Of a DNA stretch of 58,364 nt, positions 1-39,242 are shown in pieces (positions within the stretch are counted from its first letter, which is position 1; the number at the start of each line of letters is the position of its first letter). Under the pieces are notes generated by a model. That model worked only from the letters and a program-made list of their open reading frames with translations, did no database searches and was not told the DNA's origin. A program made the translations under genes and the position numbers. The stretch is taken from positions 1 to 58,364 of IMG/VR virus record IMGVR_UViG_3300025131_009806. One strand, given 5' to 3'. The stretch is from a virus.

Positions 1-3000
1 AACGGAGCCACAGGTGTAACTATGTTCGGTGGAGATGTAGTCTTCTCTGGAACGATGTACGCTGATAAGATGGTCGTAGAGCTTGACATGTCAACCACCG
101 GAAGTGTGATGATATCAGGTTCACTCTTTGTATCAAGAAGTGCAACGATAAATCAGGGATTAGAAGTCAATAAGAGTAGTGGTCAAACTTCAGAGCATGA
201 TTTCTATGTGCATACTAACGGATCAGCTGGTGGGTCTTTCTTCAGGGTTGACGTCGACGATGCGGAATACGGATCAGTATTTTTTGGCGATTCAGCAAAG
301 GGTCTAAATGTTCTGCTATACGGCTCAGCCGGTCCGAATTATGTTTATTGGGATCAGAGTGATAATAAGTTTGAAGTTCATGGAGAGCTACTTCAGCAGA
401 GAGGCGATGCCACTTTTAATGAAGCGGCTGGAGACTATGACTTCCGAGCTGAGTCCCAGTCTATTCCAGGTACAATCGTTATCGATTCTGGTACAGACCA
501 GCTCCTTCTCCACTGCTCTGGAACAACAGCGGGAAAGGCGGGCGGTGATCACGCAGGCGCACCCTCTGCTGGATCTGATGTAGCAACATATATCAGCGGA
601 TCAGCTGGATCCAAAAATATAGCAAACACCAAGGGCACGACACTGGTCACTGGAGATCTTGTTATATCTGGCGGCATGGCATTACTCGGCGCCGGTGGGG
701 GCACACTTGAGTTAACTGCTTCAATGATGGATCTCGGCTGGAAACCATCAGATCCAAGTGCTCGAGTCTCTCCGATATTTAGGCTATCTAGTCATAATGA
801 TGAGCAGAAACTGGACGTGCCTCCTGTAGACGTTGGCACCATTGAATTCTGGGGTGGAGATAGTACATATAAAAATGTCGGAGCAAAAATAATAGCTACA
901 CCCGGTGCTTCGTGGATCGCCTCAGATAGATCACCAACAAATATTGAATTCTGGACAAATGATGATACCACGGGTCCCATTAAGCGAAGTATGGAGATCC
1001 ACTATGGTGGAGGAGTCGGAATAGGAGTTGAGGGATCAGGCCCGTCAGAAGTTCTCCATATCAGCGGTACAGCTGCTGGACAAAATGCAGCACTCAGGGT
1101 AGACAGTCCATTTGGAGAAAGTGGAAGAACTGCTTCAAGCAAATATTATGCATATTCTGATAAGTCAACAAATTCTAATAACTACTATGCTTATAAATCT
1201 ACTGGAGCTGTAACTGCCTCAGATATTTCACAATTCAAAAAGTTTGCATTTGATAGAGGTGCTGATGGCAATAACGGATTAGCTACACTCTCCTGGGATG
1301 CACCGTATAAGTCAGAAGGAACTAGCAACTTCGAGCATCTTGATCATCATATCACTTACATCGGTCAGCGAGGAGCTAGCATAGCATTTCTCTCAGCTTT
1401 AGCAGTTGTATCTTCATCATATGGTCTGGGGTATAACTACCCCACAGTAGATCCCGGTGCACAGGTATTAATACTATCTGGAACAACAGATTCTGGAACT
1501 GACATAGTTGATCCTAGAAGATTCACAGATACAAACTTCTTCGTATCTGGATCTCGAGGGACAAGAAATAGCACACTAAGAGGAACATCAGTATTTGGTG
1601 GAGACCTAGTGGTATCTGGAAACACAGAGCTTAAAAGCAGCGTTACTATTAATGAGTCTGCTGCTGATTTTGACTTCCGCGCTGAATCTCAGAATATCCC
1701 TGGAGCCATTGTCATAGATTCCGGTACTGATCAGCTCCTCCTTCACGCTTCAGGTACGATAGCTGCCACCGCAGGCGGTGCTATCGAGGGAGCGGCTGGC
1801 TCCGACGTAGCCACATATATCAGTGGAACAACAGAGTCCCGTGGAATTAGTCGCAGTAAGGGAACTACACTCATCACAGGCGACATGGCACTGAGTGGAA
1901 CAATGCATCTACTGTCAGGTGCAATATTCACAGTAAGTGAGGCACTATCGTGGAACACTGCAGAGAATGTATCTATATTCGGGACTGCTAATTCACTAAA
2001 TCTAAATTCAGATGCATTTCTATATGTCAATGCATCATCAGAAACTAATTTTCAGACAGGCGATGTTAATCTAAATACAACAAATGGTGACTATGACTTT
2101 ACTGTTAGGTCAGGTGAGTCAGGATTAGATGGAATGATCGTCGTAGACGGCGGCACAGATCAGCTTATTCTACATGCATCACAAAGTGTGGCAATATGGG
2201 CCGGCGGCCCAGGAATTCCTGCAGGCACAGATGTTGGCATCTACCTGAGCGGTGCCATCGGTTCAGCAGGTGCGGCAAATAGTAAGGGAGCTGCCTTATT
2301 CACAGGTGATGTCGTCGTGTCTGGATCTCTGTACGGAGGCTACGTCGCCCAGTACGATCAGGAGGTTTTAAAGATTGGCTCTATCCTTCAGATTCAAGGT
2401 TCTAGTTTTTACTTTGATGGAGGGGCAACCGACACCGACACCTCACCTGAAGGAGAAGACATCGTCTTCTCCGTGTCCGGAAGCATCGGTAATAAGGATC
2501 AGCCCTCCTTCGAGGCTAGTGGAGGAACAGCGGTATTCGGCGGTGATCTCGTCGTCTCTGGAAACACATACCTTGCACTACGACAGATAGAAGGCCATGG
2601 TTCTGACCTCGCTAATGTCGGAATAGATGTCAACTTCTTCGTATCCGGATCTGACGGAGGAAAGATAAGCGGTGAGGGCGTCGCAGTCTTCGGAGGAGAT
2701 CTCCAAGTATCGGGTGGTATCTATATAGGTGATCCTGCTGGTTCAGCAAATGCTTCACTTATAGAGACAGATGGCACCGGAAAATTAACAATAGACGGAG
2801 AAAATTACGTTCAGCTCTCTGCTGACTCCGAGGTCATGCTCTTCGCTGGCTACAAGGAGGTATTAACTGCTTATGGCACCGGTGTGGTAGTAAATGAGCT
2901 CGCCCAGGCTGCTGTGGACTTCAGGGTTGAGACTGCCACTAAGGATCACGCTCTCTTCGTTGATGCTGCTCATGATCGTATTTACTTTCTCTCAAGTAGC

Positions 3001-4026
3001 TCTGGAGCAGCTGTAGACATACGAGAAGAGGCCATACTGATACTGTCAGGAGGTAGTCATAATGATCCCATAGGAGATGCACAGAAATACACAGACACAA
3101 ACTTCTTCGTCTCTGGGTCGATCGGTTCAGTAGTTAATGGCTTTGGCGCTGAGCAGGTTGGCAATGGAGATCTGGGCGCAGCAGTCTTTGGCGGAGATGT
3201 GGTTATCTCTGGCACTTTGTTTACCCCGGCATCGACCATTTACGTGGGGGGAGCAAAGCTAGGTTCGACGCCCACCGGTGAGTTTCTCTTCCTCTCAGGC
3301 GGTGCAGCAACAGATCCAGATCCAGCAAATGCTAGTGATGCAAACTTCTTTGTCTCCGGCGCTATTAACTCGATAGGAGGCGAAAATGCTGGAACTGCTG
3401 TCTTTGGTGGTGACATGTTAGTTAGCGGTAACTTGCAGATTCCGGCCGGGCAGAGTATCGTATTCGACAACAAAAACTTCAGAATGGGAAGCAGTAACGG
3501 AAGTGACCTGATGATAACTGCCGGTGGCGAGTTCAGCCTAGAGGCAGATAATTCTAAGATGGCATTTGATGCCGGCTCTGGCCAAGGATTCGATTTTAGA
3601 GGATCATCACAAAACTTCCTAGAGCTCGCTCCTAGTGGTGCACTTAGCTACACATCAGCTGTTGGAACTTTGATGGTCCTATCGGGATCGCAGTCAGGTG
3701 CAACCTCTCCAGATGAGTCAACATATACAGACACATGCTTCTTCGTATCTGGTGCAGTTGGATCGTACGGAACTGGTAATAGAGGAACCGCACTCTTCGG
3801 CGGAGACGTGGTTGTGAGCGGATCATTTTTTCCCGGAGAAGATACTGCATCTAATCTTGGAAGTGAAGATAATCGCTGGGCAAACGTCTACACGGGTGAC
3901 CTTCATCTCAGAAATGAGAAGGGAAGCTGGACAATACAAGAGGATGTTGACAGATTGATAGTTATAAATAACATGACCGGAAAGAGGTACAAGATGGCGC
4001 TCGAGCCACTGGGAGATGAAGAGTAA
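1..4026 (+). CDS. Repeat-rich tail fibre / structural protein, 5' partial
   Basis: Likely a trimeric tail fibre or other virion surface protein. The reading frame is open to base 1 and the residues before the first ATG (base 22) already belong to a repeat unit, so that ATG is internal and the true start lies outside the window; 1341 residues are visible. The protein is built of about ten units ending in a GGDxVVSG-type motif, often preceded by FFVSGS. A longer module of about 80 residues (DFRAES, IDSGTDQLLLH, SDVATYISG) occurs three times. The C-terminus has NLGSEDNRWANVYTGDLHL followed by a short tail, a signature I know from cyanophage structural proteins. It is followed directly by a second fibre gene of the same family (TAATG overlap). 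The exact structural role is inferred. A+T content is clearly lower than in the sugar genes downstream. Confidence 0.75.
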   Translation, partial: NGATGVTMFGGDVVFSGTMYADKMVVELDMSTTGSVMISGSLFVSRSATINQGLEVNKSSGQTSEHDFYVHTNGSAGGSFFRVDVDDAEYGSVFFGDSAKGLNVLLYGSAGPNYVYWDQSDNKFEVHGELLQQRGDATFNEAAGDYDFRAESQSIPGTIVIDSGTDQLLLHCSGTTAGKAGGDHAGAPSAGSDVATYISGSAGSKNIANTKGTTLVTGDLVISGGMALLGAGGGTLELTASMMDLGWKPSDPSARVSPIFRLSSHNDEQKLDVPPVDVGTIEFWGGDSTYKNVGAKIIATPGASWIASDRSPTNIEFWTNDDTTGPIKRSMEIHYGGGVGIGVEGSGPSEVLHISGTAAGQNAALRVDSPFGESGRTASSKYYAYSDKSTNSNNYYAYKSTGAVTASDISQFKKFAFDRGADGNNGLATLSWDAPYKSEGTSNFEHLDHHITYIGQRGASIAFLSALAVVSSSYGLGYNYPTVDPGAQVLILSGTTDSGTDIVDPRRFTDTNFFVSGSRGTRNSTLRGTSVFGGDLVVSGNTELKSSVTINESAADFDFRAESQNIPGAIVIDSGTDQLLLHASGTIAATAGGAIEGAAGSDVATYISGTTESRGISRSKGTTLITGDMALSGTMHLLSGAIFTVSEALSWNTAENVSIFGTANSLNLNSDAFLYVNASSETNFQTGDVNLNTTNGDYDFTVRSGESGLDGMIVVDGGTDQLILHASQSVAIWAGGPGIPAGTDVGIYLSGAIGSAGAANSKGAALFTGDVVVSGSLYGGYVAQYDQEVLKIGSILQIQGSSFYFDGGATDTDTSPEGEDIVFSVSGSIGNKDQPSFEASGGTAVFGGDLVVSGNTYLALRQIEGHGSDLANVGIDVNFFVSGSDGGKISGEGVAVFGGDLQVSGGIYIGDPAGSANASLIETDGTGKLTIDGENYVQLSADSEVMLFAGYKEVLTAYGTGVVVNELAQAAVDFRVETATKDHALFVDAAHDRIYFLSSSSGAAVDIREEAILILSGGSHNDPIGDAQKYTDTNFFVSGSIGSVVNGFGAEQVGNGDLGAAVFGGDVVISGTLFTPASTIYVGGAKLGSTPTGEFLFLSGGAATDPDPANASDANFFVSGAINSIGGENAGTAVFGGDMLVSGNLQIPAGQSIVFDNKNFRMGSSNGSDLMITAGGEFSLEADNSKMAFDAGSGQGFDFRGSSQNFLELAPSGALSYTSAVGTLMVLSGSQSGATSPDESTYTDTCFFVSGAVGSYGTGNRGTALFGGDVVVSGSFFPGEDTASNLGSEDNRWANVYTGDLHLRNEKGSWTIQEDVDRLIVINNMTGKRYKMALEPLGDEE
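430..675 (+). repeat. Fibre module copy A (DFRAES...SDVATYISG...TGD)
   Basis: First of four protein-level copies of an approximately 80-residue module in the two fibre genes. It runs from YDFRAES through IDSGTDQLLLH and SDVATYISG to a TGDLVISG unit. The other copies lie at about 1663-1900, 2086-2325 and 4446-4674. Copies A and B are also alike in DNA (for example GGTAC then CAGCTCCT within the IDSGTDQLLLH part), which points to duplication or recombination inside the locus. Confidence 0.7.
1663..1900 (+). repeat. Fibre module copy B
   Basis: Second copy of the approximately 80-residue module. It reads FDFRAES, IDSGTDQLLLH, SDVATYISG and KGTTLITGD. It is the copy closest to copy A in both residues and bases. 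Confidence 0.7.
2086..2325 (+). repeat. Fibre module copy C (diverged)
   Basis: Third copy of the module. It reads YDFTVRS, VDGGTDQLILH, TDVGIYLSG and KGAALFTGD. It has diverged further from copies A and B but keeps the order and spacing of the conserved blocks. Confidence 0.65.
3755..3806 (+). repeat. 52-base near-identical segment shared by both fibre genes
   Basis: This segment matches 5611-5662 in the next gene with three mismatches by eye. It encodes a VGSYGT...GTALFGGD unit. Synonymous sites are also conserved, so the similarity goes beyond shared protein sequence and suggests recent duplication or gene conversion. Confidence 0.7.
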
Positions 4027-6278
4027 TGGCATTTATAGGTCAATCATTATCGGGCTCTATCGGCCCGCTGTTAATTCAGTCCGGTAGCGGCACAGGCGGC
4101 CAGGTCCTAATACTTTCTGGAGGCGGCGGCGAATCTTATGATGAGTCTACATATACAGACATTAACTTCTTCGTCTCGGGGAGTGTTGGAAAAAAAGACT
4201 CACAGATAATGGGAGTATCTCTCTTCGGCGGAGACCTCCACATATCAGGCAACCTAACAGTAGACGGCACGTCGCCGGAGCCGCCACCGCCGCCGCCGCC
4301 ACCAGACGTGGGATGGTTCGGCATTGCCGATGGTATAATCTTCACAACTGGATCTCTCAATATAGGCACTGCTGGTGATGGAACAAATCCAGATATCAAA
4401 TTTTTCGACGGAGGCTCTGCTACTTTCAATAAGCAGGGCACAGTCGGTGCTTTCGTCGTCACATCACCAGATATACCAGGCTCGATACTGGTAGATGGCT
4501 CAACTAATCAGCTTTTTCTACACTCATCTGGAACAACAGCTACAGAGGCAGGTGGGCAAGATCATCCTGCTGGAACAGATGTAGCAACCTACATAAGTGG
4601 CACAGTTGGATCTGTCGGTGTATCAATGAGCAAGGGAGCAACTCTTATCACAGGAGATACAGTCCTCAGCGGAACTGTCCAGATGCAAGATGGAAAGTCT
4701 CTTGTCTTTAACGGTAGCACGAATACAGCTAAGATAACAAATAACGGATCCAATCTTGATATAAACGCTCCTAGTCTCCTTAATCTTAATGTTGGCTCAT
4801 CAGTAGCTATTGGGGAGCATTCAATAGGAACAGATATCATTCTGTCAGTATCCGGTGCCCTCGGAGGAAAGGCATCACGCAGGGGGGTTTCACTCTTCGC
4901 AGGTGACACATTTATCTCTGGAACACTCATAGTCTCTGGCGCTCAGAGACCAGGAAACGGATATTCTGGTGGGTCCATATCAGGATCAATCCATCACACA
5001 TCACTCGGCTTATCTTATCTAGCTGCTGGTTCTAATGTAACGATCACATCTGCATCTAATGGACAGGTCACGATCGACTCATCAGGAGGGGGAGGAGGAA
5101 TATCATGGTACGGCTCCACAGCTAACGGTGTCGCAACATTTAAGGACGCAGATGAGGCAACCGTAGAAGCAAATCTAACATTCGACGGAACAAACCTTCT
5201 GATCAAAGACCAGGGTCAGATCCAATTTCTTAATGGCGACCAGAGCATCAGTAATGCCGGAACTGATCTATCTATTTTATCTAGTGAAGGTGTGGCCATA
5301 GCAGCAGACGGCGGTGTTCTCAATCTGCAGGGTTCTAATCAAATAAAACTGACAACATCAGGTGGACCAGTTCTGATACTGACAGGTGTGGGTGCATCTA
5401 CAGCGATGTCACCGGACGAGTCAAATTACTCCGATCTAATCTTCTTCGTATCCGGTTCTGCTGGGTCTAAGGACACAGCTAACCCAGGAGTTTCGCTATT
5501 TGGCGGTGACCTCGTGGTCTCCGGTAACACTTACCTTGCGATGAAGAAATCAGGTCCCGGATCTGATCTCGTAGGTGTCGGAACAGACACAAACTTCTTT
5601 GTATCTGGCACAGTTGGATCGTACGGAACTAGCAATAAAGGAACCGCACTCTTCGGCGGAGATGTGGTCATGTCTGGAAGTCTATACGGCGGTGATTATT
5701 CTCAGCATCCGCAGAAGCCGGGAACACGGCTGACAATAAAGTCATCTGTCACCATTAATGCAGCATTATTTGAGTTCACAGGTAATGAAGATGAGGGTCC
5801 AGACGCTGGGAGAGACGCAAGCTTCCTTATCTCTGGTACAATGGATGGTAAGCAGAGTGGTGGCGGAGTAGCAGTTTTCGGAGGTGACACTGTTATCTCT
5901 GGAACCCTGTATGGCGGTGTAATAGATTACGGCGAGGGCGAAATAGAAGAGAAGCTCACAATTGGTACAGCTCTTGAGATTGCAGGTTCTAGATTCTTCT
6001 TTGACGGAGACGATCATGAAAATGAAGAAGCTGCCGCGCCTGACGGCGATGATATTGTATTCTCGGTCTCAGGAAGCATCGGTGGTAAGGGACAAGACGC
6101 ATTCGAGGGAGATGGCGGAGTAGCAGCCTTCGGCGGTGACATGGTGGTATCAGGAAGCATCTATGTCTCACCAGAGGACACAGGTGAGGGTTTTGTCCTA
6201 ATCTCTCCAAGCGGAAAATTGTTCAGGATAAATGTAGCTGACAACGGAGATCTCAGCACAACGGATATAACACCATAA
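4026..6278 (+). CDS. Second repeat-rich tail fibre / structural protein
   Basis: A 750-residue relative of the preceding fibre protein, probably a surface-exposed virion component. It has seven GGD/AGD...SG units preceded by FFVSG, SVSG or YISG, and one copy of the IDSGTDQLLLH-type module at about residues 140-220. A run of eight prolines lies near residue 90, a likely rigid linker. A glycine-rich stretch (SSGGGGGISWYG) near residue 355 begins a domain found once only. The C-terminal part (about 640-715) parallels the YFDGG...DIVFSVSGSIG block of the first protein. Unlike the first protein it lacks the NRWANVYTGDLHL tail and ends in a short polar segment. Its ATG overlaps the upstream stop (TAATG), so the two are probably translated together. 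Confidence 0.75.
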   Translation: MAFIGQSLSGSIGPLLIQSGSGTGGQVLILSGGGGESYDESTYTDINFFVSGSVGKKDSQIMGVSLFGGDLHISGNLTVDGTSPEPPPPPPPPDVGWFGIADGIIFTTGSLNIGTAGDGTNPDIKFFDGGSATFNKQGTVGAFVVTSPDIPGSILVDGSTNQLFLHSSGTTATEAGGQDHPAGTDVATYISGTVGSVGVSMSKGATLITGDTVLSGTVQMQDGKSLVFNGSTNTAKITNNGSNLDINAPSLLNLNVGSSVAIGEHSIGTDIILSVSGALGGKASRRGVSLFAGDTFISGTLIVSGAQRPGNGYSGGSISGSIHHTSLGLSYLAAGSNVTITSASNGQVTIDSSGGGGGISWYGSTANGVATFKDADEATVEANLTFDGTNLLIKDQGQIQFLNGDQSISNAGTDLSILSSEGVAIAADGGVLNLQGSNQIKLTTSGGPVLILTGVGASTAMSPDESNYSDLIFFVSGSAGSKDTANPGVSLFGGDLVVSGNTYLAMKKSGPGSDLVGVGTDTNFFVSGTVGSYGTSNKGTALFGGDVVMSGSLYGGDYSQHPQKPGTRLTIKSSVTINAALFEFTGNEDEGPDAGRDASFLISGTMDGKQSGGGVAVFGGDTVISGTLYGGVIDYGEGEIEEKLTIGTALEIAGSRFFFDGDDHENEEAAAPDGDDIVFSVSGSIGGKGQDAFEGDGGVAAFGGDMVVSGSIYVSPEDTGEGFVLISPSGKLFRINVADNGDLSTTDITP
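4446..4674 (+). repeat. Fibre module copy D
   Basis: Fourth copy of the approximately 80-residue module, here in the second fibre gene. It reads IPGSILVDGSTNQLFLH, TDVATYISG and KGATLITGD. Its presence in both genes supports a common origin. Confidence 0.65.
5611..5662 (+). repeat. Partner of the 52-base near-identical segment at 3755-3806
   Basis: Differs from 3755-3806 at three positions by eye. Encodes VGSYGTSNKGTALFGGD. Confidence 0.7.
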
Positions 6279-14826: not shown

Positions 14827-16467
14827 ATGGTTTCTGAAAAAATGATAGCAGGCGTATGGTCAGGCCATGATTCATCTTATTGTATTCTAGATGGTGGACG
14901 ACCTATCATACACGATGAATATGAGAGATTTATAAGAGAAAAAGAGCCAGCCGGTGACTCTGTAAGATTTCTTTTAGATAACTTTAAAGACCACGGATCA
15001 TTAAAGTATGTAGCAACATGTACACCAACTAATAAGCTAACAGAGCACAAAGAGTCTCTTATAGAGATAAATTCAATAATTTCTAAAAACGGTGGAGGCA
15101 TATATTCAGTTGGACATCATCAAGCACATGCTGCAAATACATTCTTTTCTAGCAATTTCAAAGAATCACTAATCTTGACAATCGACGGCGGCGGAGTCGA
15201 GGATGATGGATTTGAGACAGCATTCACTGTGTGGACAGGCAAAGAAAATGAAATTAACTGTAAGTACAGACTTCCAATGAATGTCTTAAACATAGGTGGG
15301 CTCTGGACACGGGCCACAAGGTATATTTTTGAACTACAGTCAGGGTGGCCACGGGGTCACCAGGCAGGATCTGTGATGGCCATGGCAGCCTTGGGAGATA
15401 GGGAAAAATATGTAAAAGATTTTCATAAAATGCTTACAGAAGACATACAGATAGCTTCTTTTAAGCCTCCAAATCAGCCAAAGGGAGCTTTAATCTTAGG
15501 TAATGATCCAAAGCATCCCTATCTAGACAAATGGAATAAGATAGCAAGAAAAAGTGAGCAAGATAAGTTTGATCTAGCAGCAGGCCTACAATATGCCACA
15601 GAGATCTTCTTTAAAGCTCTTATGACACAAATTATAGGAGAAGTTCCTCAAAAAAATCTTTGTTTAGCTGGCGGCGTATCTCTAAATTGTGTTCTCATAG
15701 GAAAGATAAAAGAATGGTTTCCGCAGATAGAAAATATATTTGCAACAACAGTTCCACATGACGGCGGCATAGCTATAGGGGCAGCTCAGTATGTCTGGCA
15801 TCAAGTCTTAAGAAACGAAAGAATTAAGTGGAAGGATAATTTCACTCCATATCTAGGCAAAACATACTCAGAGCAAGAAGTGATGAAGTCGATATCAGAT
15901 AAAGATAGCGTCGAAATAAAAAAAGTTTCAGACAGCGATGTTATTGATCTTCTCGATCACCAGAAAATTATCTCGGTATTTGGACAAGGTTCAGAATCAG
16001 GTCGTCGTGCACTAGGAAATAGAAGCATATTAGCAGATCCCCGCTCATCTAAAATGAAAGAAATAATAAATGATAAGGTGAAGCACAGGCAGTGGTATAG
16101 ACCATTTGCTCCCTCAATCTTAGAGGAAGAGGGGAAAAATTGGTTTGAAAACTATCAAGAGAGTCCATATATGAGCTTTGCACTACACTTCAAAGAGGAA
16201 AAGAAGGAACTAGTTCCAGCTGTTGTTCACGTAGATGGAACAGCTAGATTGCAGACAGTTACAAGTAATGATAATAATTGGTATCATAATTTTTTAAAGA
16301 TGTGGCACAAAAAATCTGGTGTTCCTATTTTACTTAATACGAGCTTTAATGATAGAGAGCCAATATGTGAAACACCAGACCATGCAATTAATTGTTTTTT
16401 AGGTACAGATATTGACTATCTATACTTTTATGATTATGGATTTTTGCTTTCAAAGGTAGACAAATGA
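14827..16467 (+). CDS. NodU/CmcH-type O-carbamoyltransferase
   Basis: Transfers a carbamoyl group from carbamoyl phosphate to a hydroxyl, in this setting most likely on a sugar. The 546-residue length and layout match the TobZ/NodU family. The N-terminal Kae1-like domain has GVWSGHDSSYCIL, GHHQAHAANTFFSS (residues about 96-109) and LTIDGGG; LAGGVSLNC follows near 280. The C-terminal domain has GSESGRRALGNRSILADPR and WYRPFAPSIL. The start is set by GAGGGAG at 14813-14819. Its position next to the sialic-type module suggests it modifies a sugar of that pathway, which is inferred. Confidence 0.88.
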   Translation: MVSEKMIAGVWSGHDSSYCILDGGRPIIHDEYERFIREKEPAGDSVRFLLDNFKDHGSLKYVATCTPTNKLTEHKESLIEINSIISKNGGGIYSVGHHQAHAANTFFSSNFKESLILTIDGGGVEDDGFETAFTVWTGKENEINCKYRLPMNVLNIGGLWTRATRYIFELQSGWPRGHQAGSVMAMAALGDREKYVKDFHKMLTEDIQIASFKPPNQPKGALILGNDPKHPYLDKWNKIARKSEQDKFDLAAGLQYATEIFFKALMTQIIGEVPQKNLCLAGGVSLNCVLIGKIKEWFPQIENIFATTVPHDGGIAIGAAQYVWHQVLRNERIKWKDNFTPYLGKTYSEQEVMKSISDKDSVEIKKVSDSDVIDLLDHQKIISVFGQGSESGRRALGNRSILADPRSSKMKEIINDKVKHRQWYRPFAPSILEEEGKNWFENYQESPYMSFALHFKEEKKELVPAVVHVDGTARLQTVTSNDNNWYHNFLKMWHKKSGVPILLNTSFNDREPICETPDHAINCFLGTDIDYLYFYDYGFLLSKVDK

Positions 16468-17057
16468 AAGTATGCATAGTTGGAAATTCACCTAATCTTT
16501 TAGATAAAGACTTAGGTGATAAAATAGACATGTGTGACCATGTCATTAGAATTAATGATTTTGTAATAGAGGGATTTGAAAAACAGATAGGCTCTAAAAC
16601 AACTATTATTGCAGCAGGTTTTAGTTCTATTTCTAAGATGCTAAAGGGTGATTACACAACAAGTCATCTTATGAATACGTGTGATATATGGGTTCTTCAT
16701 CCAGAACCAGGAAGGATTAGCAGTGTTGTCAACTATGGAGTGAGTAAAGATAGAATATTTGTAATAGATGGAGATGCTTATAGCTTTTTAAAAAATGTCA
16801 TTTATGAAAATTTTTGGAGAAAGATACCTTCTTGTGGAATAGCAACTATTCAAATGTCACTTAATCACTTTAAAAGTGATGAAATATTTATCGTGGGATT
16901 TGATGAAAATACTGGAAAAGAAGGAAAAGGTCACTATTATGAAAAAGACTTTCTTGATATAGACCTTCCAGGTGACCCAGTAGGTCATGATTTCGCATCC
17001 GAAAATTCTTACATACAGAGACTTGTCGATAAAGAAAGAATTAAAAGGCTTGAATAA
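16464..17057 (+). CDS. Compact GT29-like sialyltransferase
   Basis: Probably moves a CMP-activated nonulosonic acid onto a glycan. All four GT29 sialylmotifs can be read in 197 residues. L is VGNSPNLLDKDLGDKIDMCD plus HVIRIND at about 6-32. S is IPSCGIATIQMSL...DEIFIVGFDE from about 121. Motif III is H157-Y-Y-E160. VS is H175 followed four residues later by E180. It is much shorter than animal enzymes and has no membrane anchor. ATGA overlap with the carbamoyltransferase; CMP-sugar synthase and NeuB genes follow. An older 'DUF115-like' label would be the alternative. Confidence 0.72.
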   Translation: MKVCIVGNSPNLLDKDLGDKIDMCDHVIRINDFVIEGFEKQIGSKTTIIAAGFSSISKMLKGDYTTSHLMNTCDIWVLHPEPGRISSVVNYGVSKDRIFVIDGDAYSFLKNVIYENFWRKIPSCGIATIQMSLNHFKSDEIFIVGFDENTGKEGKGHYYEKDFLDIDLPGDPVGHDFASENSYIQRLVDKERIKRLE

Positions 17058-17119: not shown

Positions 17120-18358
17120 ATGAATACGTGGTATGTCATACCTGCACGCAAGGGTTCTAAGGGGCTCAAGTTTAAAAATAGAAGACTGTTGCCAATAACA
17201 GTAAATCAGATACCTGATCATGAAAAAGATAATATCATAGTATCTACTGATGACGAAGCTCTAATTGATTTCTGTAAAGAGAAAAATATTTTATTTAGAG
17301 ATAGGCCTCGCCATCTATCTAGTGATGAAGCATCTTTAAAGGATGTGATTTTAGATACTGTACAGTATTTTAAAATGGATTCAGATGATATAGTTGTAAT
17401 TCTTTTTCCAACATTTCCACAAAGAACATTTGATGATATCAGAGAAGCCTTAGCTTTTCTAGATAAAAATAACTTAAAGTCTTGCACAGGAAAAAGAGTC
17501 ATAGAAGATAATCATCCGTATCTGTGCTTTGAAAAGTCTGGGAGCATACTGGGAAAAAAGGTCGTAGATCATCCACACTATAGAAGACAAGACTATCCAG
17601 ACTGTTTTGGACTTTGTCATCTTGTATGTGTTGCAAAGGCATCAGAGGTATCAAGGCTTGATGATCTTTTGGTAAATTCTGAAACAGGCTACATGTGGTG
17701 TAGAGATGATCTCATAGATGTTGATTATGAAGAAGATTTTTTAAAGTATTCTGAAAAAATGACATCTGGAATTGAAAGATTTAATCCTAGGGCTTTTGAA
17801 ATAGAATTTTCTCCATTTATAAGACACTTTGATAGATACTTTGATGCAATAAAGCTTTTGGGAAAAACAGGAGATAGAGAGTCTTGGCTAGACTGTGCCT
17901 GTGGCAGTGGATATGGAACATCTTTTTTAACAAATTTTACTAGTAATGTATGGGGGTATGATAGAGATAAAGAGGCTATCATGCATGCTAACTGCTTCTA
18001 TAAGAATAGATTTTGCAATTTTACTTCTAGTATAAATGACCTTAGTGATAAAAGATTTGATATAATTTTTTCAATTGAAACCATAGAGCACATGCCTATA
18101 GAGGAAGCAAAAGTCTTTTTAAGGCAGTGCAATGATATGCTTGTAGATGATGGGCACCTATTAATCACAACACCAATTGTTGAAAAAACAAATTTAAATC
18201 CTACTAATGAATTTCATTTTTTTGAATGTTCACTGAGTGATTTTGTTAGTCTCTTAGCTGATGGTGGATTTAATGTGGTCGATACATTATTAAAAGAAAC
18301 AACTTTTACAGATGGTGAAACAAAAGACCAGGGATATTTTAAGTGTCAAAAATCGTAG
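17120..18358 (+). CDS. CMP-sialate-type cytidylyltransferase fused to a methyltransferase
   Basis: A 412-residue two-domain protein. Residues 1 to about 215 match CMP-N-acylneuraminate cytidylyltransferases: IPARKGSKGLKFKNRRL at 6-22 is the nucleotide-binding signature, IIVSTDDEAL follows, and RPRHLSSDEASLKDV fits the usual RPxxLSxDxAxxxDV block. Residues about 230-412 are a class I SAM methyltransferase with WLDCACGSGYGTSFL near 252, YDRD as the acidic motif II, and SIETIEHM near 315. No stop or frame change separates the domains. The fusion suggests methylation of the activated sugar or its precursor, which is inferred. The NeuB gene follows. Confidence 0.8.
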   Translation: MNTWYVIPARKGSKGLKFKNRRLLPITVNQIPDHEKDNIIVSTDDEALIDFCKEKNILFRDRPRHLSSDEASLKDVILDTVQYFKMDSDDIVVILFPTFPQRTFDDIREALAFLDKNNLKSCTGKRVIEDNHPYLCFEKSGSILGKKVVDHPHYRRQDYPDCFGLCHLVCVAKASEVSRLDDLLVNSETGYMWCRDDLIDVDYEEDFLKYSEKMTSGIERFNPRAFEIEFSPFIRHFDRYFDAIKLLGKTGDRESWLDCACGSGYGTSFLTNFTSNVWGYDRDKEAIMHANCFYKNRFCNFTSSINDLSDKRFDIIFSIETIEHMPIEEAKVFLRQCNDMLVDDGHLLITTPIVEKTNLNPTNEFHFFECSLSDFVSLLADGGFNVVDTLLKETTFTDGETKDQGYFKCQKS

Positions 18359-18415: not shown

Positions 18416-19285
18416 GTGAAAAGCAATAGAAAAAATGTGTTTGTTATCGCAGAAATTGGTATCAATCACAATGGTGATCTCGAAATAGCAAAGCGATTAA
18501 TAGATGAAGCTAATAAGGCAGGATTCAATGCTGTAAAATTTCAAAAGAGAACAGTAGAAGATGTGTATGCTCCTGAAGAGCTTGACAGACTACGAGAAAG
18601 TCCATTTGGAACAACAAATAGAGAACAAAAAAACGGACTAGAGTTTAGAGAAGCAGACTATGATGAAATTGATAGATACTGTAAGACTCTATGTATTGAA
18701 TGGTTTGCATCTTCTTGGGATATTAAGAGTCAAGAATTTATTAGGAAGTATGACTTAAAGTACAATAAAGTTGCTTCTGCAATGTTAACCGTAACACCTC
18801 TTCTTCATAAGATCGCTGAAGAAAGAAAGCACACATTTATATCTACTGGAATGAGTACTCTTAGAGAAATTGATGAAGCTGTAAGAGTTTTTAGAAAATA
18901 TGACTGTCCATTTGAATTGATGCACTGTAACTCATCTTATCCCATGAAGGATGAAGAAGCAAATCTTTTAGTTATTAAAACTCTAAGAAACAGATACAGT
19001 TGTGATGTTGGGTATAGCGGACATGAAAGGGGTGTTAGTGTGACTCTAGCTGCAACAGCAATTGGAGCTACTAGCATTGAAAGACATATAACTCTAGATA
19101 GAACGATGTATGGGTCTGATCAAGCTGCATCTCTTGGACTTCCAGCAGTAAGAAAGCTTGTGAGAGATATTAGGGTTATTGAATCTGCTATGGGTGATGG
19201 TGAAAAAAGAATATATGAGAGCGAGAAATCTTGTAGAGAGAAGCTATCAAATCCTTACTGGTTGAAGAAAATGCGAGGTGAATAG
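18416..19285 (+). CDS. neuB: NeuB-family nonulosonic acid synthase without SAF domain
   Basis: Condenses phosphoenolpyruvate with an N-acyl-hexosamine-type sugar to a nine-carbon nonulosonic acid. The 289 residues cover the TIM barrel only: FVIAEIGINHNGDLEIAK at 9-26, GFNAVKFQKR, FASSWD, FISTGMSTLREI, CNSSYPMKDEEANL, GYSGHERG and ERHITLDR are all present in family order. The protein ends at SNPYWLKKMRGE, where classical NeuB (about 345 residues) continues into the antifreeze-like SAF domain. GTG start, set by TAGGAGA at 18403-18409. Between the CMP-sugar synthase and an aminotransferase gene. Product (sialic, legionaminic or pseudaminic type) not resolved. Confidence 0.88.
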   Translation: MKSNRKNVFVIAEIGINHNGDLEIAKRLIDEANKAGFNAVKFQKRTVEDVYAPEELDRLRESPFGTTNREQKNGLEFREADYDEIDRYCKTLCIEWFASSWDIKSQEFIRKYDLKYNKVASAMLTVTPLLHKIAEERKHTFISTGMSTLREIDEAVRVFRKYDCPFELMHCNSSYPMKDEEANLLVIKTLRNRYSCDVGYSGHERGVSVTLAATAIGATSIERHITLDRTMYGSDQAASLGLPAVRKLVRDIRVIESAMGDGEKRIYESEKSCREKLSNPYWLKKMRGE

Positions 19286-19287
19286 TG

Positions 19288-20466
19288 ATGGGTGATCCGA
19301 AGTGGACCTCGGGAAATGAATTAAAGTATTTAAAAGAAGTTCTTAGTAATGAGCACAAGTCAAATCCATTTACTGACAGGCTTGAATCATCTTTTTGTGA
19401 GCTTTATAGCACAAAGTATGCCATAGCGATGAACTCTGCAACTAGTGCAATTCATACAGCCCTGGTTGCAGCAGGTGTTGGTCCCGGTGATGAAGTTATT
19501 ACAACTCCATACACTGTTCTTGTAGATAGTAGCATGGCGATGATAGTTGGAGCAACTCCTGTTTTTGCAGATATTGACTATAACACTCATAATATTTGCC
19601 CAAAGTCTATTTCTGAAAGAATTACTGATAAGACAAAGGCAATTATTGCTGTTTCTTATCATGGTCTTCCCACTGATATTGATCCAATTATGGACCTAGT
19701 AAAGGGAACAGATATAGTTGTAATTGAAGACAATGCTCAAACACAATGTGCACTATATAAGAATAGAAATATTGGAAATACTGCTCATTTTTCTCTTTGG
19801 TCTTTTGAGAGAACAAAACATCTTTCAACCGGCGAGGGAGGAATTCTGTGTACAAATGATGAAAATCTGGCCACAGAAGCAAGAAAGTTTGCAGGAATGG
19901 GATTTAAGAATCTAACAGCTGGAAAAAGTAAAATGGTAGCAATCACACCAAAAGATTTTCAGAGACCAGATTATACACGTCATGATCGAATTGGATTAAA
20001 CTATCGCTACAATGAATTTTGTGCAGCAGTAGCACTTGCACAATTTGAAAGGCTAGAAGAGATTGTCAGGCTAAGGCAAGATGTAGCAAAGCTTTATGAT
20101 GATGCATTTGCTGACACAGACTTCGAACCTCAGCTTGTTCCTGAAGGGTATACTAGTGCATACTTTACATATTGTGCTAAGTCTCCATTTAATAATACAC
20201 GAGAGTGGTTAGCATTTTATAACTATCATCATAATAATTGTGGAGATGATTTTTATGGGATGATGCAGCCTTCTTATTTTGAACCGATCATGGTTGAAAA
20301 AGGTTTCGCTGAAAAGTATGGGGGTACCTGTCCTGTAGCAGAAGAAGTTCAAAGAAGAAGTATGTTATTTAAGACAAATTATAGAAGTCTTGAAGAGGCA
20401 AATCGATATATTGATATTCTTAAACTGACCCTCTGTGCACATATGGAGGGAAAAATAAGAGCATGA
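19288..20466 (+). CDS. DegT/DnrJ/EryC1/StrS sugar aminotransferase
   Basis: A PLP enzyme of 392 residues that would put an amino group on a keto-sugar nucleotide. AMNSATSAIHTAL, GDEVITTPYTVL, VIEDNAQ and SFERTKHLSTGEGG are family landmarks, with K177 in the last as the expected Schiff-base lysine; HDRIGLNYRYNEFCAA follows. It lies next to NeuB, like the PseC/LegC aminotransferases of pseudaminic and legionaminic acid clusters, so a UDP-4-keto sugar is a plausible substrate. ATG 19288 is preferred to GTG 19285 because GAGGTG at 19275-19280 is well spaced. ATGA overlap with the SDR gene. Confidence 0.85.
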   Translation: MGDPKWTSGNELKYLKEVLSNEHKSNPFTDRLESSFCELYSTKYAIAMNSATSAIHTALVAAGVGPGDEVITTPYTVLVDSSMAMIVGATPVFADIDYNTHNICPKSISERITDKTKAIIAVSYHGLPTDIDPIMDLVKGTDIVVIEDNAQTQCALYKNRNIGNTAHFSLWSFERTKHLSTGEGGILCTNDENLATEARKFAGMGFKNLTAGKSKMVAITPKDFQRPDYTRHDRIGLNYRYNEFCAAVALAQFERLEEIVRLRQDVAKLYDDAFADTDFEPQLVPEGYTSAYFTYCAKSPFNNTREWLAFYNYHHNNCGDDFYGMMQPSYFEPIMVEKGFAEKYGGTCPVAEEVQRRSMLFKTNYRSLEEANRYIDILKLTLCAHMEGKIRA

Positions 20467-21284
20467 AATTATTTGATCTATCAGGCAAAAAATGTTTAAT
20501 TACAGGAGCTGGGGGACTTCTAGGAAGGTATCATGCAGAAGCTATTATTGAGGCTGGAGGGTCTGTTATTTTAACTGATATTGATCGTAATAGTGTAGTA
20601 TCATTAGCAGAAGATCTAAAAGAAGGATATGAAAAAGAGTGTGCATCCTGGGCAGTTATGGATGTGACAGATCACAAGTCAATTTCTGGGGTATTAAATC
20701 GTATGGGACCTATTGATATTTTAATTAATAATGCTGCCAAAGATCCAAAAGTAGATAGCACTGGATTAAATGATTCAATTCCACAGTCAAGATTTGAAGT
20801 CATGTCTCTTAAATCATGGAAGGAAGGATTAGATGTATCTTTAAATGGTACATTTTTGGTGACACAAGCTGTTATTAATAAAATGATAAAGAATAATACA
20901 GCTGGAGTTATACTGAATATCTCGTCAGATCTTAGTGTTATAGCACCTGATCAAAGAATATATAAGAATTTATCTGAATCATTTTCTGAACAAAATGTTA
21001 AGCCTATATTTTATTCTGCTTCAAAGTGGGCTATTGTTGGGATGACTAAATATCTTGCCACATATTTTGCATCAAAAAATATAAGAGTTAACTCTATAAG
21101 CCCTGGCGGAGTATTCAATGATCACCCAAAAGGTTTTGTAGAAAAAATATCTAATTTGATACCTATGTCACGAATGGCAAATGTTGATGAGTATAAGGGA
21201 GCAGTTATCTTTGCTTGTTCTGACGCTAGTTCGTATATGACTGGCCATAATCTTATTTTAGATGGTGGAAGAAGCCTATGGTAG
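20463..21284 (+). CDS. Short-chain dehydrogenase/reductase
   Basis: A classical SDR of 273 residues. The cofactor motif TGAGGLLG is at 14-21, followed by NNAAKDP, NISSD with the catalytic serine, and Y184-S-A-S-K188. SISPGG and MTGHNLILDGG close the fold. SDRs of this kind occur next to neuA and neuB in bacterial flagellin or surface sialic-type gene sets (PtmA-like), which fits its position. The substrate is unknown. It overlaps both neighbours by a few bases. Confidence 0.8.
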   Translation: MKLFDLSGKKCLITGAGGLLGRYHAEAIIEAGGSVILTDIDRNSVVSLAEDLKEGYEKECASWAVMDVTDHKSISGVLNRMGPIDILINNAAKDPKVDSTGLNDSIPQSRFEVMSLKSWKEGLDVSLNGTFLVTQAVINKMIKNNTAGVILNISSDLSVIAPDQRIYKNLSESFSEQNVKPIFYSASKWAIVGMTKYLATYFASKNIRVNSISPGGVFNDHPKGFVEKISNLIPMSRMANVDEYKGAVIFACSDASSYMTGHNLILDGGRSLW

Positions 21285-21610
21285 TCTATGTAGACATTGA
21301 TGAAACAATTTGTAGATATGCTGGAGAGAGAGTCTATCATCTTGCAATTCCAATTTTAGAAAGAATAGAAAAGATTAATTTTTTATATGATGAGGGTAAC
21401 ACTATTGTTTATTGGACAGCTCGCGGCGCCACCACAAAAATTGATTGGACAGAGCTGACAAAAAAACAGCTTAGTGAGTGGGGTGCAAAGTACACTGATC
21501 TCAAAATGAATCATAAGCCACACTATGATCTTTTAATATGTGATAAAGCAATAAATTCTACCGTTTTTTTTAGTGATGTTGAGGAGGTAAAAAATGAAAT
21601 CTCTTCCTAA
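21278..21610 (+). CDS. Small HAD-family phosphatase-like protein
   Basis: A 110-residue protein with the HAD nucleophile motif YVDIDETIC (D6 and D8), YWTARG as motif II near residue 48, and HKPHYDLLICDKA as a short motif III/IV region. The size matches small cap-less HAD phosphatases found in capsule and surface sugar clusters. It may remove a phosphate from a sugar intermediate, for example one made by the NeuB branch, but this is inferred. Overlaps the SDR gene by 7 bases and the cupin gene by 17. Confidence 0.65.
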   Translation: MVVYVDIDETICRYAGERVYHLAIPILERIEKINFLYDEGNTIVYWTARGATTKIDWTELTKKQLSEWGAKYTDLKMNHKPHYDLLICDKAINSTVFFSDVEEVKNEISS

Positions 21611-21968
21611 AAAAATTGATTTAGAAATGAAGTTTGTACCCAAGGGATGGGGTTTTGAAAAGTGGATTGTCAATTGTGAGGAATACTGTGGAAAATTACT
21701 TTACTTTGTTAAGGGAAAAAGATGTTCCTGGCATTACCACAAATTAAAAGACGAAGTATTCTACATTCAGTCTGGAAAGATATTAGTAAAGTATTCTGAC
21801 AGAGATGACCTCAATTGTTCAAGTGAAAAAACATTGTCAAGAGGCGATAGCTTTCATGTGTATAGGGGTTTACGTCATCAGATGATAGCACTAGAAGATA
21901 CAGAGCTATTTGAGTTTTCTACAACTCACTATGATTCAGATAGTCATAGGATCAAAAAAGGAGATTAG
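21594..21968 (+). CDS. Cupin-domain protein
   Basis: A 124-residue single-domain cupin. KGWGFEKWIVNCEEYCGKLL is followed by SWHYHKLKDEVFYIQSGKI, a cupin motif 1 with two histidines and a glutamate, and by the second motif GDSFHVYRGLRHQM. Proteins of this type sit in sugar-nucleotide clusters as isomerases or epimerases, or bind a metal with no known reaction. A strong GGAGG lies seven bases before the ATG. Function within the cassette is open. Confidence 0.65.
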   Translation: MKSLPKKIDLEMKFVPKGWGFEKWIVNCEEYCGKLLYFVKGKRCSWHYHKLKDEVFYIQSGKILVKYSDRDDLNCSSEKTLSRGDSFHVYRGLRHQMIALEDTELFEFSTTHYDSDSHRIKKGD

Positions 21969-35130: not shown

Positions 35131-36153
35131 ATGACTCATTCACCTATTAAAAATTCCAAAATTCTTATATTTGGGGGAACCGGCTCTCTTGGAAAGGTTC
35201 TCATCAAGAAATATATTGATAATAATTCTGTATGTGTGTATTCTAGAGATGAGTCTAAGCATTGGACCATAAGAAATGAGATGTCGCATGATAATCTATC
35301 ATTTATCATAGGTGACATAAGAGATAAACAGAGATGTAAAGATGCGATACTTCAATTTAAGCCAAAACACATAATATTGGCTTCTGCTCTCAAACATGTT
35401 GATGTTTGTGAGATATCTCCTGAAGAGAGTATAAAGACAAATATCGAAGGGATATCTAATGTTATAAGTGTTATCAAAGATAATTTTAGAATTTTAGAGA
35501 ATTTAAAAACTGTCTTGATGGTGAGCACAGACAAGGCATGCTCTCCTATTAATGTATATGGAATGTGTAAATCAATTGCAGAAAGAGTTGTGACATCTGC
35601 TGCTGAGCTGTCTATTCCAGTAAAATTTATCGCAGTAAGATACGGAAATGTTCTAGAGTCTAGAGGGAGCATAATACCACTGTTTAAGTATCAATCAGAA
35701 AATTGTAACGAAATTACTGTTACAGATAGAAGAATGACACGATTCGTTATGACACTTGATGAGAGTGCTAGACTAATTGATGCAACGATACAAAATGGAG
35801 ATTCGGGACAGACATGGGTGCCAAGGCTTCCTGCAATGAAAGTATTAGATCTAGCAGAAATATATTCAGAAATGTCAGGTAAGCCCATAAAGATAATTGG
35901 AATGCGCCCTGGTGAAAAGCTTCATGAAGACCTAATCAATATTTCTGAGTCGATGAGAACAAGACAGATTGAAAAATACTTTGCAATTAGCTCTTCTTTT
36001 ACGACGCCTTTTCAAAGTGATGACTATGTTATGAAAAGTAATATGAACCTAATGACAAAAGAAGGGCTAAGAAATCACTTAGAGTCACTAGATATCTTGC
36101 ACAAGCCTCTTTCACAATTTTTAGGAAAGTCTATTGAGGAGTTAAAAAAATAA
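35131..36153 (+). CDS. PseB/FlaA1-like UDP-GlcNAc 4,6-dehydratase
   Basis: A 340-residue extended SDR of the PseB/FlaA1/CapD family, which turns UDP-GlcNAc into a 4-keto-6-deoxy product. FGGTGSLG at 14-21 binds NADP. VSTDKACSPINVYGMCKSIAE supplies D134, K135 and Y143/K147, the residues used by PseB-type enzymes; retaining homologues often have Met where Y143 is. RYGNVLESRGSIIPLF and RMTRFVMTLDE are also family blocks. This could be the first step towards the sugar used by the NeuB gene 16 kb upstream, with the aminotransferase at 19288 as second step, but the link is inferred. Confidence 0.85.
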   Translation: MTHSPIKNSKILIFGGTGSLGKVLIKKYIDNNSVCVYSRDESKHWTIRNEMSHDNLSFIIGDIRDKQRCKDAILQFKPKHIILASALKHVDVCEISPEESIKTNIEGISNVISVIKDNFRILENLKTVLMVSTDKACSPINVYGMCKSIAERVVTSAAELSIPVKFIAVRYGNVLESRGSIIPLFKYQSENCNEITVTDRRMTRFVMTLDESARLIDATIQNGDSGQTWVPRLPAMKVLDLAEIYSEMSGKPIKIIGMRPGEKLHEDLINISESMRTRQIEKYFAISSSFTTPFQSDDYVMKSNMNLMTKEGLRNHLESLDILHKPLSQFLGKSIEELKK

Positions 36154-37038: not shown

Positions 37039-37674
37039 ATGATTAACAAGATTATAATTTCTCCTCATGTAGATGATGAAGTTTTGGGCTGCGGGGGAGT
37101 AATTGATGATAAAACACTAGTTCTTCATTGCGGTCTAGCGAAGTTGCAGAATCATGGAAATAGTATTTTTTCTAAAGAGGCGAGATTAAAAGAGTTTGAA
37201 AAAATTAAGATAGAGACTGGATGTAGTTCTATTCTTTTAGATAATGCTGTTAATCAATATTGTGCAGCTGACTTGATTTCTGACATAGAGAAAGTACTTA
37301 ATGAGTATAAGCCTAGGACTGTGTTTATTCCAACACCATCATATAATCAAGACCACAAGGAGGTATACAAAGCGTCAATCATTGCATTAAGACCGCATGA
37401 CATCAATTACTTTGTGTCGAGAGTATTGATGTATGAGCAACCTCAAGATTTGTGGGCAGGAGTGGATGATCAATTCAATCCTAGCTTTTTTGTCAGGATT
37501 GATATTGATAGAAAGCTGAGACTCTATTCACTTCTTGAGTCTCAAGTTCGGGATCATAGAAGCATAGACCTCTTAAGGAATATTGCTGCTATAAGAGGAA
37601 GTCAATCATGCTGTGAATATGCAGAGGCATTTCAAGTAATAAGGTGGGTAGCATATTCAGGTGATGAGATATAA
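37039..37674 (+). CDS. PIG-L family deacetylase
   Basis: A 211-residue LmbE/PIG-L zinc hydrolase, which removes acetyl groups from GlcNAc-type sugars. ISPHVDDEVLGCGGV at 7-21 carries the HxDD zinc motif (H10, D12, D13), and NQDHKEVY contains D105 and H106. Substrates are often N-acetylated sugar lipids or sugar nucleotides, which fits a glycan cassette. It starts 51 bases after the previous gene in an A+T-rich gap. Confidence 0.82.
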   Translation: MINKIIISPHVDDEVLGCGGVIDDKTLVLHCGLAKLQNHGNSIFSKEARLKEFEKIKIETGCSSILLDNAVNQYCAADLISDIEKVLNEYKPRTVFIPTPSYNQDHKEVYKASIIALRPHDINYFVSRVLMYEQPQDLWAGVDDQFNPSFFVRIDIDRKLRLYSLLESQVRDHRSIDLLRNIAAIRGSQSCCEYAEAFQVIRWVAYSGDEI

Positions 37675-37704: not shown

Positions 37705-38490
37705 ATGAGATACAATAAAAGTATGAGGGGATGTATAGTAATTCCCGTTTTTTTTGGGTACAGATCAAGACGACCTGATAATCATTTTAAAAATATCGAT
37801 AGCGTGGTAGAGCTGACAAAATATCTCATAGCGCATTATCGTCAATTAGATACAGGAATTCACACAGATATTATTTTTGTCAATAACTCACCCGATGAAC
37901 CAATTGCAAATTCGTTATTTGCATCAATCAATAACACTCCTGTTATAAATGGCATATTTAAAGTGATCGATGGTGACAATATTGGAATGTCATTTGGAGC
38001 CTATAACAAGGCATTCCAGGCATTTCAAAACGATTATGACATCTGGTGTTTTACAGAAGATGATACAATTTATAGCTTGCCAAATTTTCTTAATGGTGTA
38101 ATCAAACAGTTTGAAAGTGATTCATCTCTAGGCTTTGCAGCTCTAATTGGTGTCGGAAGTGAGAATAATCTAAATTCGGCTCATTCTCATGGAGGCTGCG
38201 GCGTGACAACACGAGAAAAATTATCAGAGGTGTTCGATAAGCTGGGTGAGCTACCTCACGGTCATGAGATTCCCACTTTAGAGGCAGATAAATATGACCA
38301 TGCACACTTTAAAAAAATTCACATGATCGGTGGTGAGGTTGCTTTTACTAATTGTTATTGTCAGCTAGGATATAAAATAGCCAAAATGAACTGTCCAGAT
38401 AAGCCCTATACAAGATGGCATCACGATTATCAGGAATTAGACATCGAATCATGGGGCTCTTATAGCTATATAAAAAAGGTAATTTCATGA
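37705..38490 (+). CDS. GT-A fold glycosyltransferase-like protein
   Basis: A 261-residue protein with CIVIPVFFGYRSRRPDN, DIIFVNNSPDEP and CFTEDDTIY near residue 115, which match the nucleotide-binding strands and DxD position of GT-A enzymes. GDNIGMSFGAYNKAF resembles the helix that follows in GT2 members. Its exact family is not clear. The start may be ATG 37723 (255 residues), as a TATAAT element stands just before 37705. It overlaps the sulfotransferase gene (ATGA). Confidence 0.6.
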   Translation: MRYNKSMRGCIVIPVFFGYRSRRPDNHFKNIDSVVELTKYLIAHYRQLDTGIHTDIIFVNNSPDEPIANSLFASINNTPVINGIFKVIDGDNIGMSFGAYNKAFQAFQNDYDIWCFTEDDTIYSLPNFLNGVIKQFESDSSLGFAALIGVGSENNLNSAHSHGGCGVTTREKLSEVFDKLGELPHGHEIPTLEADKYDHAHFKKIHMIGGEVAFTNCYCQLGYKIAKMNCPDKPYTRWHHDYQELDIESWGSYSYIKKVIS

Positions 38491-39242
38491 AAAAGAAACA
38501 TATATTTATTGGAGGACACCATAATAGTTGTACCACAATAGTACGTAAGCTCATTCTTTGCAAAGATTACATGGAAGCCGATAGATATCCTGACTATATG
38601 GGAAAATATTTTCATAGTGAATTTTTTAAACGATGGCATGCTAAGAAAGATAATTTTGAATTTTTTGAAAATAAAGTTCGAAGAGACACAGGTGGCCTCG
38701 AATACTGGGTTATCAAGCACAACCACTTGATGTTGATGATACCTGAGCTTAAAAAGGCATTTCCAGGCTCAGTATTTATAATGTGTATCAGAAATCCAAT
38801 TGATCAATTACGAAAACCACAAATGAATTATGAGTGGTACGGAAATGCTAGAAGTTGGGATCCACCGCTTGTAGAAAAATTTGGACTCTATGGGGAGTGG
38901 GTAGATGAGGGAATAAAAAATGCTGACCATATTATTCGACTTGAAGATCTCTTATTTGATACAAAAGATACAATTAAAAAGCTATATCAATTTTTAAAAT
39001 GTGATGATAGAGTAGATGATGATATTTTACAAATGATTCTTCCTCCATCCTCAACTGTTTTAGATGGGCATAGACCCGCTAAGAGCACTGGGAGTGACCC
39101 ATTAAGCATCCTAAAGGTCACTGAGGCAGAATTAGATAATTACATTATAGATTCGTCTGGGACAATACTGCGTGATGCACTCAAAGAGTATTGTATCCGT
39201 TTAGGCTATGATATGCCCGAATACTTGAAAAGAAAAAAATAA
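38487..39242 (+). CDS. Sulfotransferase-like protein
   Basis: A 251-residue protein likely to move a sulfuryl group from PAPS to a hydroxyl. FIGGHHNSCTTIVRKLI at 7-23 fits the 5'-phosphosulfate loop (S14, T16, T17), and FIMCIRNPIDQLRKP near 97-111 fits the 3'-phosphate motif with R102 and a following aspartate. IIRLEDLLFDT corresponds to the later conserved block. It closes the sugar cassette and is followed by a terminator, so sulfation may be a final step. The catalytic base is not identified. Confidence 0.7.
   Translation: MKKKHIFIGGHHNSCTTIVRKLILCKDYMEADRYPDYMGKYFHSEFFKRWHAKKDNFEFFENKVRRDTGGLEYWVIKHNHLMLMIPELKKAFPGSVFIMCIRNPIDQLRKPQMNYEWYGNARSWDPPLVEKFGLYGEWVDEGIKNADHIIRLEDLLFDTKDTIKKLYQFLKCDDRVDDDILQMILPPSSTVLDGHRPAKSTGSDPLSILKVTEAELDNYIIDSSGTILRDALKEYCIRLGYDMPEYLKRKK

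Follow-up and report, generated by a model that had tools for sequence, protein, structure and literature searches.

A NeuA-type domain and a SAM methyltransferase domain in one open reading frame of a phage contig

Known systems and the fused open reading frame

In the CMP-NeuAc synthetase (NeuA) of Neisseria, D209, D211, R165 and Q166 are reported to be important, with D209/D211 acting at the metal and R165 at the sugar carboxylate, and Q104, K142, N175 and Y179 surround Neu5Ac (PMC2901514). NeuA domains are also found fused to other enzymes. A sample of 498 bacterial genomes was surveyed (299 Pseudomonadota, 91 with matches, and 199 Planctomycetota, 57 with matches), from which all frames long enough for a methyltransferase (MT)-sized second domain were retrieved. 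The fusion partners in these genomes are GDSL hydrolase, SDR, KdsC-like HAD, cupin and NeuB, and the layout is NeuA at the N-terminal end and the partner enzyme at the C-terminal end. Among the best 80 of at least 551 viral contigs that match a canonical NeuA profile, three carry fusions, one with a HAD-like partner and two identical ones with a class-IV aminotransferase-like partner. Cyanophages and jumbo phages are described as having large polysaccharide clusters in which carbamoyltransferases and methyltransferases accompany glycosyltransferases, epimerases and cupins, and for the cyanophage clusters it is argued that the phage glycan alters the host surface (available text of PMC7824862).

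The window analyzed here is the whole stretch of 58,364 bases of a virus record and is a tailed-phage contig. Like the cyanophage and jumbo-phage clusters, it has a large cluster with glycosyltransferases, epimerases and cupins, but the available text of PMC7824862 describes neither a NeuA/NeuB/GT29 set nor a NeuA-MT fusion. In the window a single unbroken frame of 412 aa on the plus strand extends from an ATG at 17120 to a TAG ending at 18358, with a strong Shine-Dalgarno sequence at its start (−9.5 kcal/mol). Positions 17120–17758 (213 aa) encode a NeuA-type domain of a divergent clade known from phages, thaumarchaea, SAR202 and SAR11, and positions 17759–18358 (199 aa) encode an MT domain. 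The N-terminal half matches the Pfam CMP-ulosonate synthetase superfamily model CTP_transf_3 (PF02348; 5e-8, residues 6–117), and the C-terminal half matches five MT models, Methyltransf_23, 11, 25, 12 and 31 (best 1.6e-11, residues 238–386), all above gathering cut-offs. An AlphaFold2 model, for which the input alignment consisted of the window and locus proteins only, shows two confident domains (mean pLDDT 89.8, pTM 0.60). The stretch between them is weakly predicted, with lowest confidence at residues 216–233.

The sequence-only reading had placed a NeuA-like domain and a complete SAM methyltransferase in one frame at exactly these coordinates, and the frame, Pfam matches and folds confirm it. 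That picture lacked two features: a phage carries the gene, and the two parts joined in it are separate neighboring genes in relatives. The same reading did not know the architecture as a standard one, in agreement with the sampling, as no NeuA-MT fusion was found among matches in the 498 bacterial genomes, the best 80 of at least 551 viral canonical-motif loci, or 32 assessable relatives. The other NeuA fusions share the layout of the window gene but none has an MT partner. A literature search gave nothing direct on a NeuA-MT fusion or on phage NeuA/GT29. Since fusions of NeuA to enzymes of its pathway are common, the gene combines known domains in a new way but is not a new principle.

The survey yielded other observations on viral NeuA genes. 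NeuA relatives occur in at least 551 IMG/VR contigs, and a NeuB of approximately 270–290 aa lies near many of the 80 examined, so that viral contigs commonly carry putative nonulosonate modules. An unusual pairing is seen in two phage contigs (L159:2495–4132 and L160:1220–2857), where a 545-aa protein consists of NeuA fused to an apparent PLP class-IV aminotransferase domain. The top viral structural match, A0A6J5PJY0 (545 aa), was considered as a second NeuA-MT fusion and rejected; it is probably of this same kind.

The C-terminal half shows a Rossmann MT fold with an intact SAM motif I (LDxxxGxG, here WLDCACGSGYG) and is thus a class I SAM methyltransferase. Structural matches include YcgJ, RebM, NodS, AtmM and others (Z = 17.6–19.0); the sugar methyltransferases RebM (3bus) and AtmM (6uvq), and NodS (3ofk), match over the whole domain with Z = 17.7–18.4. 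The score against the UbiG ubiquinone O-methyltransferase model (TIGR01983) is 40.7 bits, below its cut-off of 102.95 bits. These structural relatives act on many types of acceptor, and as many unrelated methyltransferases score equally well, the fold match gives no pointer to the acceptor.

Gene neighborhood and the possible methyl acceptor

The fused gene lies in a glycan-biosynthesis cluster of approximately 33 kb (6344–39242; this cluster, the fused gene and the genes from GT29 to the PseB-like dehydratase listed below are on the plus strand). A large repetitive gene pair at 22–6278, probably tail-fibre-like, flanks the sugar genes on one side, and further phage genes, read as structural, are found from approximately 44 kb onward. 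Immediately upstream of the fusion is a GT29 sialyltransferase-like gene (16464–17057; PF00777, 7e-20), the probable user of the CMP-sugar. Downstream is a NeuB-type nonulosonate synthase (18416–19285, 289 aa; Pfam NeuB 2e-67), and a NeuB-family synthase next to a NeuA-family synthetase marks a nonulosonic acid operon. A canonical NeuB has a C-terminal SAF domain, but no SAF domain was detected in the window protein, in which, as in that of contig L010, the NeuB domain is the only one found; by sequence, this points away from the textbook enzyme. There follow a DegT/PseC-like aminotransferase (19285–20466), an SDR oxidoreductase with PtmA among its weaker NCBIfam matches (20463–21284), a small HAD-like protein assigned by eye and with no Pfam match (21278–21610), and a cupin protein (21594–21968) whose homolog adjoins NeuB in contig L027. 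A PseB-like UDP-GlcNAc 4,6-dehydratase is found at 35131–36153.

The cluster has additional sugar-modifying genes. A NodU/Nol-type carbamoyltransferase (14827–16467) is just upstream of the GT29 gene, which suggests that carbamoyl groups may be added to the phage glycan as well. At the cluster end are a PIG-L type deacetylase (37039–37674, Pfam) and a gene that appears sulfotransferase-like by eye (38487–39242), i.e. more sugar-modifying steps.

Relatives were collected with a profile of the N-terminal half and its homolog from the 484-kb phage LR756508, which gave 19 IMG/VR contigs. Two of these carry canonical NeuA, and two were left uncounted, since in each the NeuA frame extends past the end of the stored sequence. 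Adding L025 and LR756508 to the remaining 15 gives a set of 17 assessable phage contigs that have the divergent NeuA, with 14 distinct sequences. NeuA is a standalone gene of 207–225 aa in all 17, and no MT is attached to NeuA in 15 further genome loci, which include marine thaumarchaea, SAR202 and SAR11. In three phage contigs, an MT similar to the window domain is found nearby as a separate gene. L010 and L020 display the gene order NeuA-MT-NeuB, with an MT 56% identical to the C-terminal half of the fusion. L025 has GT29, NeuB-SAF, MT, a radical-SAM-like protein and NeuA within one cluster; its NeuA groups with that of the window (support 0.91), and identity to the window MT is 52–56% over the three contigs. 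In L027, the MT that adjoins NeuB is more distantly related. In six contigs (e.g. L018), NeuA is followed directly by NeuB with no MT, and in four contigs MT-like genes adjoin a canonical phage NeuA.

Other members of the set recur as well. GT29 genes are found beside NeuA or NeuB in L012, L025 and LR756508, and the small HAD-like gene occurs with NeuA/NeuB in L008, L009, L010, L018, L027 and LR756508. At 300–332 kb of LR756508.1 (loci L002 and L003), at least five GT29 sialyltransferase-like genes are clustered with NeuA, NeuB and a small HAD-like gene; to our knowledge, GT29 in phages is little described. In L025 (2518–3987) and L012 (4584–6107), two phage contigs that also encode GT29 and NeuA of the divergent type, NeuB carries a C-terminal cupin-like domain, and SAF is also detected in the L025 NeuB-cupin protein.

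Searches of IMG/VR with the window MT domain alone, and with the whole 412-aa protein, gave no relative. A search of genome_contigs with an MT alignment showed no locus with a window-type MT, so within the data searched the MT clade looks phage-borne.

The mechanism proposed from these data is that of a bifunctional phage enzyme. The neighboring NeuB would make a nonulosonic (sialic-acid-like) sugar, probably not Neu5Ac. The N-terminal half would convert it with CTP and Mg2+ to the CMP-activated form, and the C-terminal half would methylate the same sugar with SAM, either ahead of activation or following it. Transfer of the methylated product to a glycan, which may be a host surface polysaccharide or a virion decoration, would then fall to the GT29-like enzyme encoded upstream, and the fusion would hold activation and methylation at a fixed ratio. 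We regard the case for such an enzyme, acting on one and the same sugar ahead of GT29-like transfer, as evenly balanced. A methylated nonulosonic acid had already been suggested by the sequence-only reading. The suggestion fits the recurrent neighborhood, NeuA-MT-NeuB in L010 and L020 and GT29/NeuB/MT/NeuA in L025, and it is from this neighborhood that we infer methylation of the sugar. Most NeuA partners elsewhere belong to the NeuA pathway, and by analogy the MT may belong to it too.

Alternatively, the fusion could be real but its MT half could act on another sugar or on the glycan as it grows, having been joined to NeuA only as a gene neighbor. Genes for several other sugars lie in the 33-kb cluster (RmlA, RmlB and GDP-mannose dehydratase-like genes), and the fold is that of methyltransferases with diverse acceptors. 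As glycan clusters often contain MT genes, linkage alone is a weak argument for the acceptor. But the MT clade occurs together with NeuA and NeuB in the window and in three other contigs, a distant MT adjoins NeuB in L027, and the pathway character of most NeuA partners argues in the same direction. Another acceptor is thus rather unlikely.

The seam between the two domains

The seam falls at residue 213/214 (base 17758/17759), which is exactly the MT start codon. Residue 213 is where a standalone NeuA would end, and the standalone MTs start with MGSIADERF or MDKIADERF while the window sequence MTSGIERF follows in frame right after residue 213. At 17754–17762, a run of six A (17754–17759) merges into the ATG at 17759–17761. 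The DNA at 17750–17764 is TCT GAA AAA ATG ACA; with one A less it reads TCT GAA AAA TGA, and the stop overlaps the ATG. Thus one base separates the fused gene from two genes, and the fusion was found in one contig only. A missed stop near 17780 was a concern of the sequence-only reading; the concern is real, but the critical position is 17758/17759.

If the A-run contains a sequencing or assembly error of one base, the true arrangement is two successively translated genes with an ATGA overlap, NeuA with 213 aa and MT with 199 aa. Consistent with this, the MT start methionine is retained, the relatives have two genes, and four-base overlaps are frequent in the window, where approximately 10 other gene pairs overlap by exactly four bases. 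However, the window genes in such overlaps have ribosome sites of −2.4 to −9.8 kcal/mol, whereas the internal ATG at 17759 has none (−0.4 kcal/mol, rank 47 of 50). The same MT start in L010 and L020 has a ribosome site (−5.8 and −6.4 kcal/mol); the L025 MT also has none, which weakens this argument. Two further points speak against an error: the genes of this contig contain 156 homopolymers of at least six bases, yet none of the others is visibly broken, and NeuA fusions in nature are not rare. No closely related contig for checking the seam was found by the whole-protein IMG/VR search or by a search for the junction pattern with 0–4 variable bases at the A-run, which gave no second copy, although near-identical records may be hidden from the latter. 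An error is unlikely. From the missing ribosome site, the otherwise unbroken genes and the readiness with which NeuA fuses, the fusion is probably real. Slippage of the transcript at the A-run to produce both forms was set aside because the run is short.

We infer a natural origin in which adjacent NeuA and MT genes of an operon became fused through loss of the intervening stop. In L010, the NeuA and MT genes overlap by 13 bases in different frames. L020 displays a scar at 4606–4720, in which an L018-like NeuA is followed first by the beginning of a NeuB (approximately 15 codons), next by the 3′ end from an L010-like NeuA, and finally by MT and NeuB. Recombination probably carried the MT block into L020 along with the end of a different NeuA. 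As read from the sequence, this scar shows an apparent exchange of modules in phage nonulosonate operons.

The sugar probably activated by the NeuA-type half

The cytidylyltransferase domain is full length, and residues 6–214 align with CMP-NeuAc synthetases of known structure. Structural alignment gives Z = 22.3 over 198 residues with the Neisseria enzyme 1eyr (VIA-align 2), 21.7 with V. cholerae NeuA (6ifd) and 20.6 with CMP-Pse5Ac7Ac synthetase (9ftc). Thus by its modeled structure the N-terminal half is a CMP-nonulosonate synthetase, and the domain model and full-domain fold together place it in the CMP-ulosonate synthetase superfamily. It shares with the N. meningitidis and V. cholerae enzymes the fold, the P-A-R-x-G-S-K...KN nucleotide motif (R10, S13, K14, K19, N20), the two metal-binding aspartates (D200/D202) and the carboxylate-binding arginine. 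D200, D202, R156 and Q157 correspond to Neisseria D209, D211, R165 and Q166, and these four as well as R10, K14, K19 and N20 are retained throughout the NeuA clade.

The window protein differs from these enzymes, apart from the added MT domain, in one loop and in the contacts to Neu5Ac. The alignment shows a shortening of approximately 7 residues, relative to the Neisseria enzyme, in the segment that leads from the KN motif to the STDD strand. Q104, K142, N175 and Y179 are replaced by F96, L135, C166 and C170, and so the protein lacks the strict signature of a CMP-Neu5Ac synthetase; much of the clade likewise replaces these residues. As the CTP, metal and carboxylate residues are kept, the N-terminal half probably activates an ulosonic acid other than Neu5Ac, most likely another nonulosonate.

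The best NCBIfam model for this half is PseF (TIGR03584), which matches 14 of 14 clade members, and the structure 9ftc (with 9ftb, PseF) is similar, but at 37.6 bits against a cut-off of 205.7 the protein is not assignable to PseF. Pseudaminic or legionaminic acid is a lead and not a result, because the PseB-like (271 bits against a curated cut-off of 408), PseC-like and SDR/PtmA matches of the cluster are all under curated cut-offs. That the N-terminal half instead activates an ulosonic acid that is not a nonulosonate (e.g. a Kdo-like 8-carbon sugar), or is inactive, is very unlikely: the replaced contacts, the shorter loop, the weak KdsB-model matches in 10 of 14 clade members and the adjoining NeuB with no detectable SAF could be read in this way, but the CTP, metal and carboxylate residues do not vary across the clade, CMP-NeuAc synthetases and PseF outscore KdsB, and the gene adjoins NeuB and GT29.

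The interpretation put forward by the sequence-only reading is thus partly supported. Taken further, and only tentatively, the phage bifunctional enzyme may make a CMP-activated methylated nonulosonic acid that is not yet described, which a recurrent module of the NeuA clade, MT, NeuB and GT29 would write on host or virion glycans. If true, this would be genetic evidence for phages that make and activate methylated sialic-acid-like sugars, testable on one protein. The divergent NeuA clade with its MT, NeuB and GT29 neighbors would represent a recurrent and little-described phage module for changing surface sugars, relevant to superinfection exclusion and host recognition.
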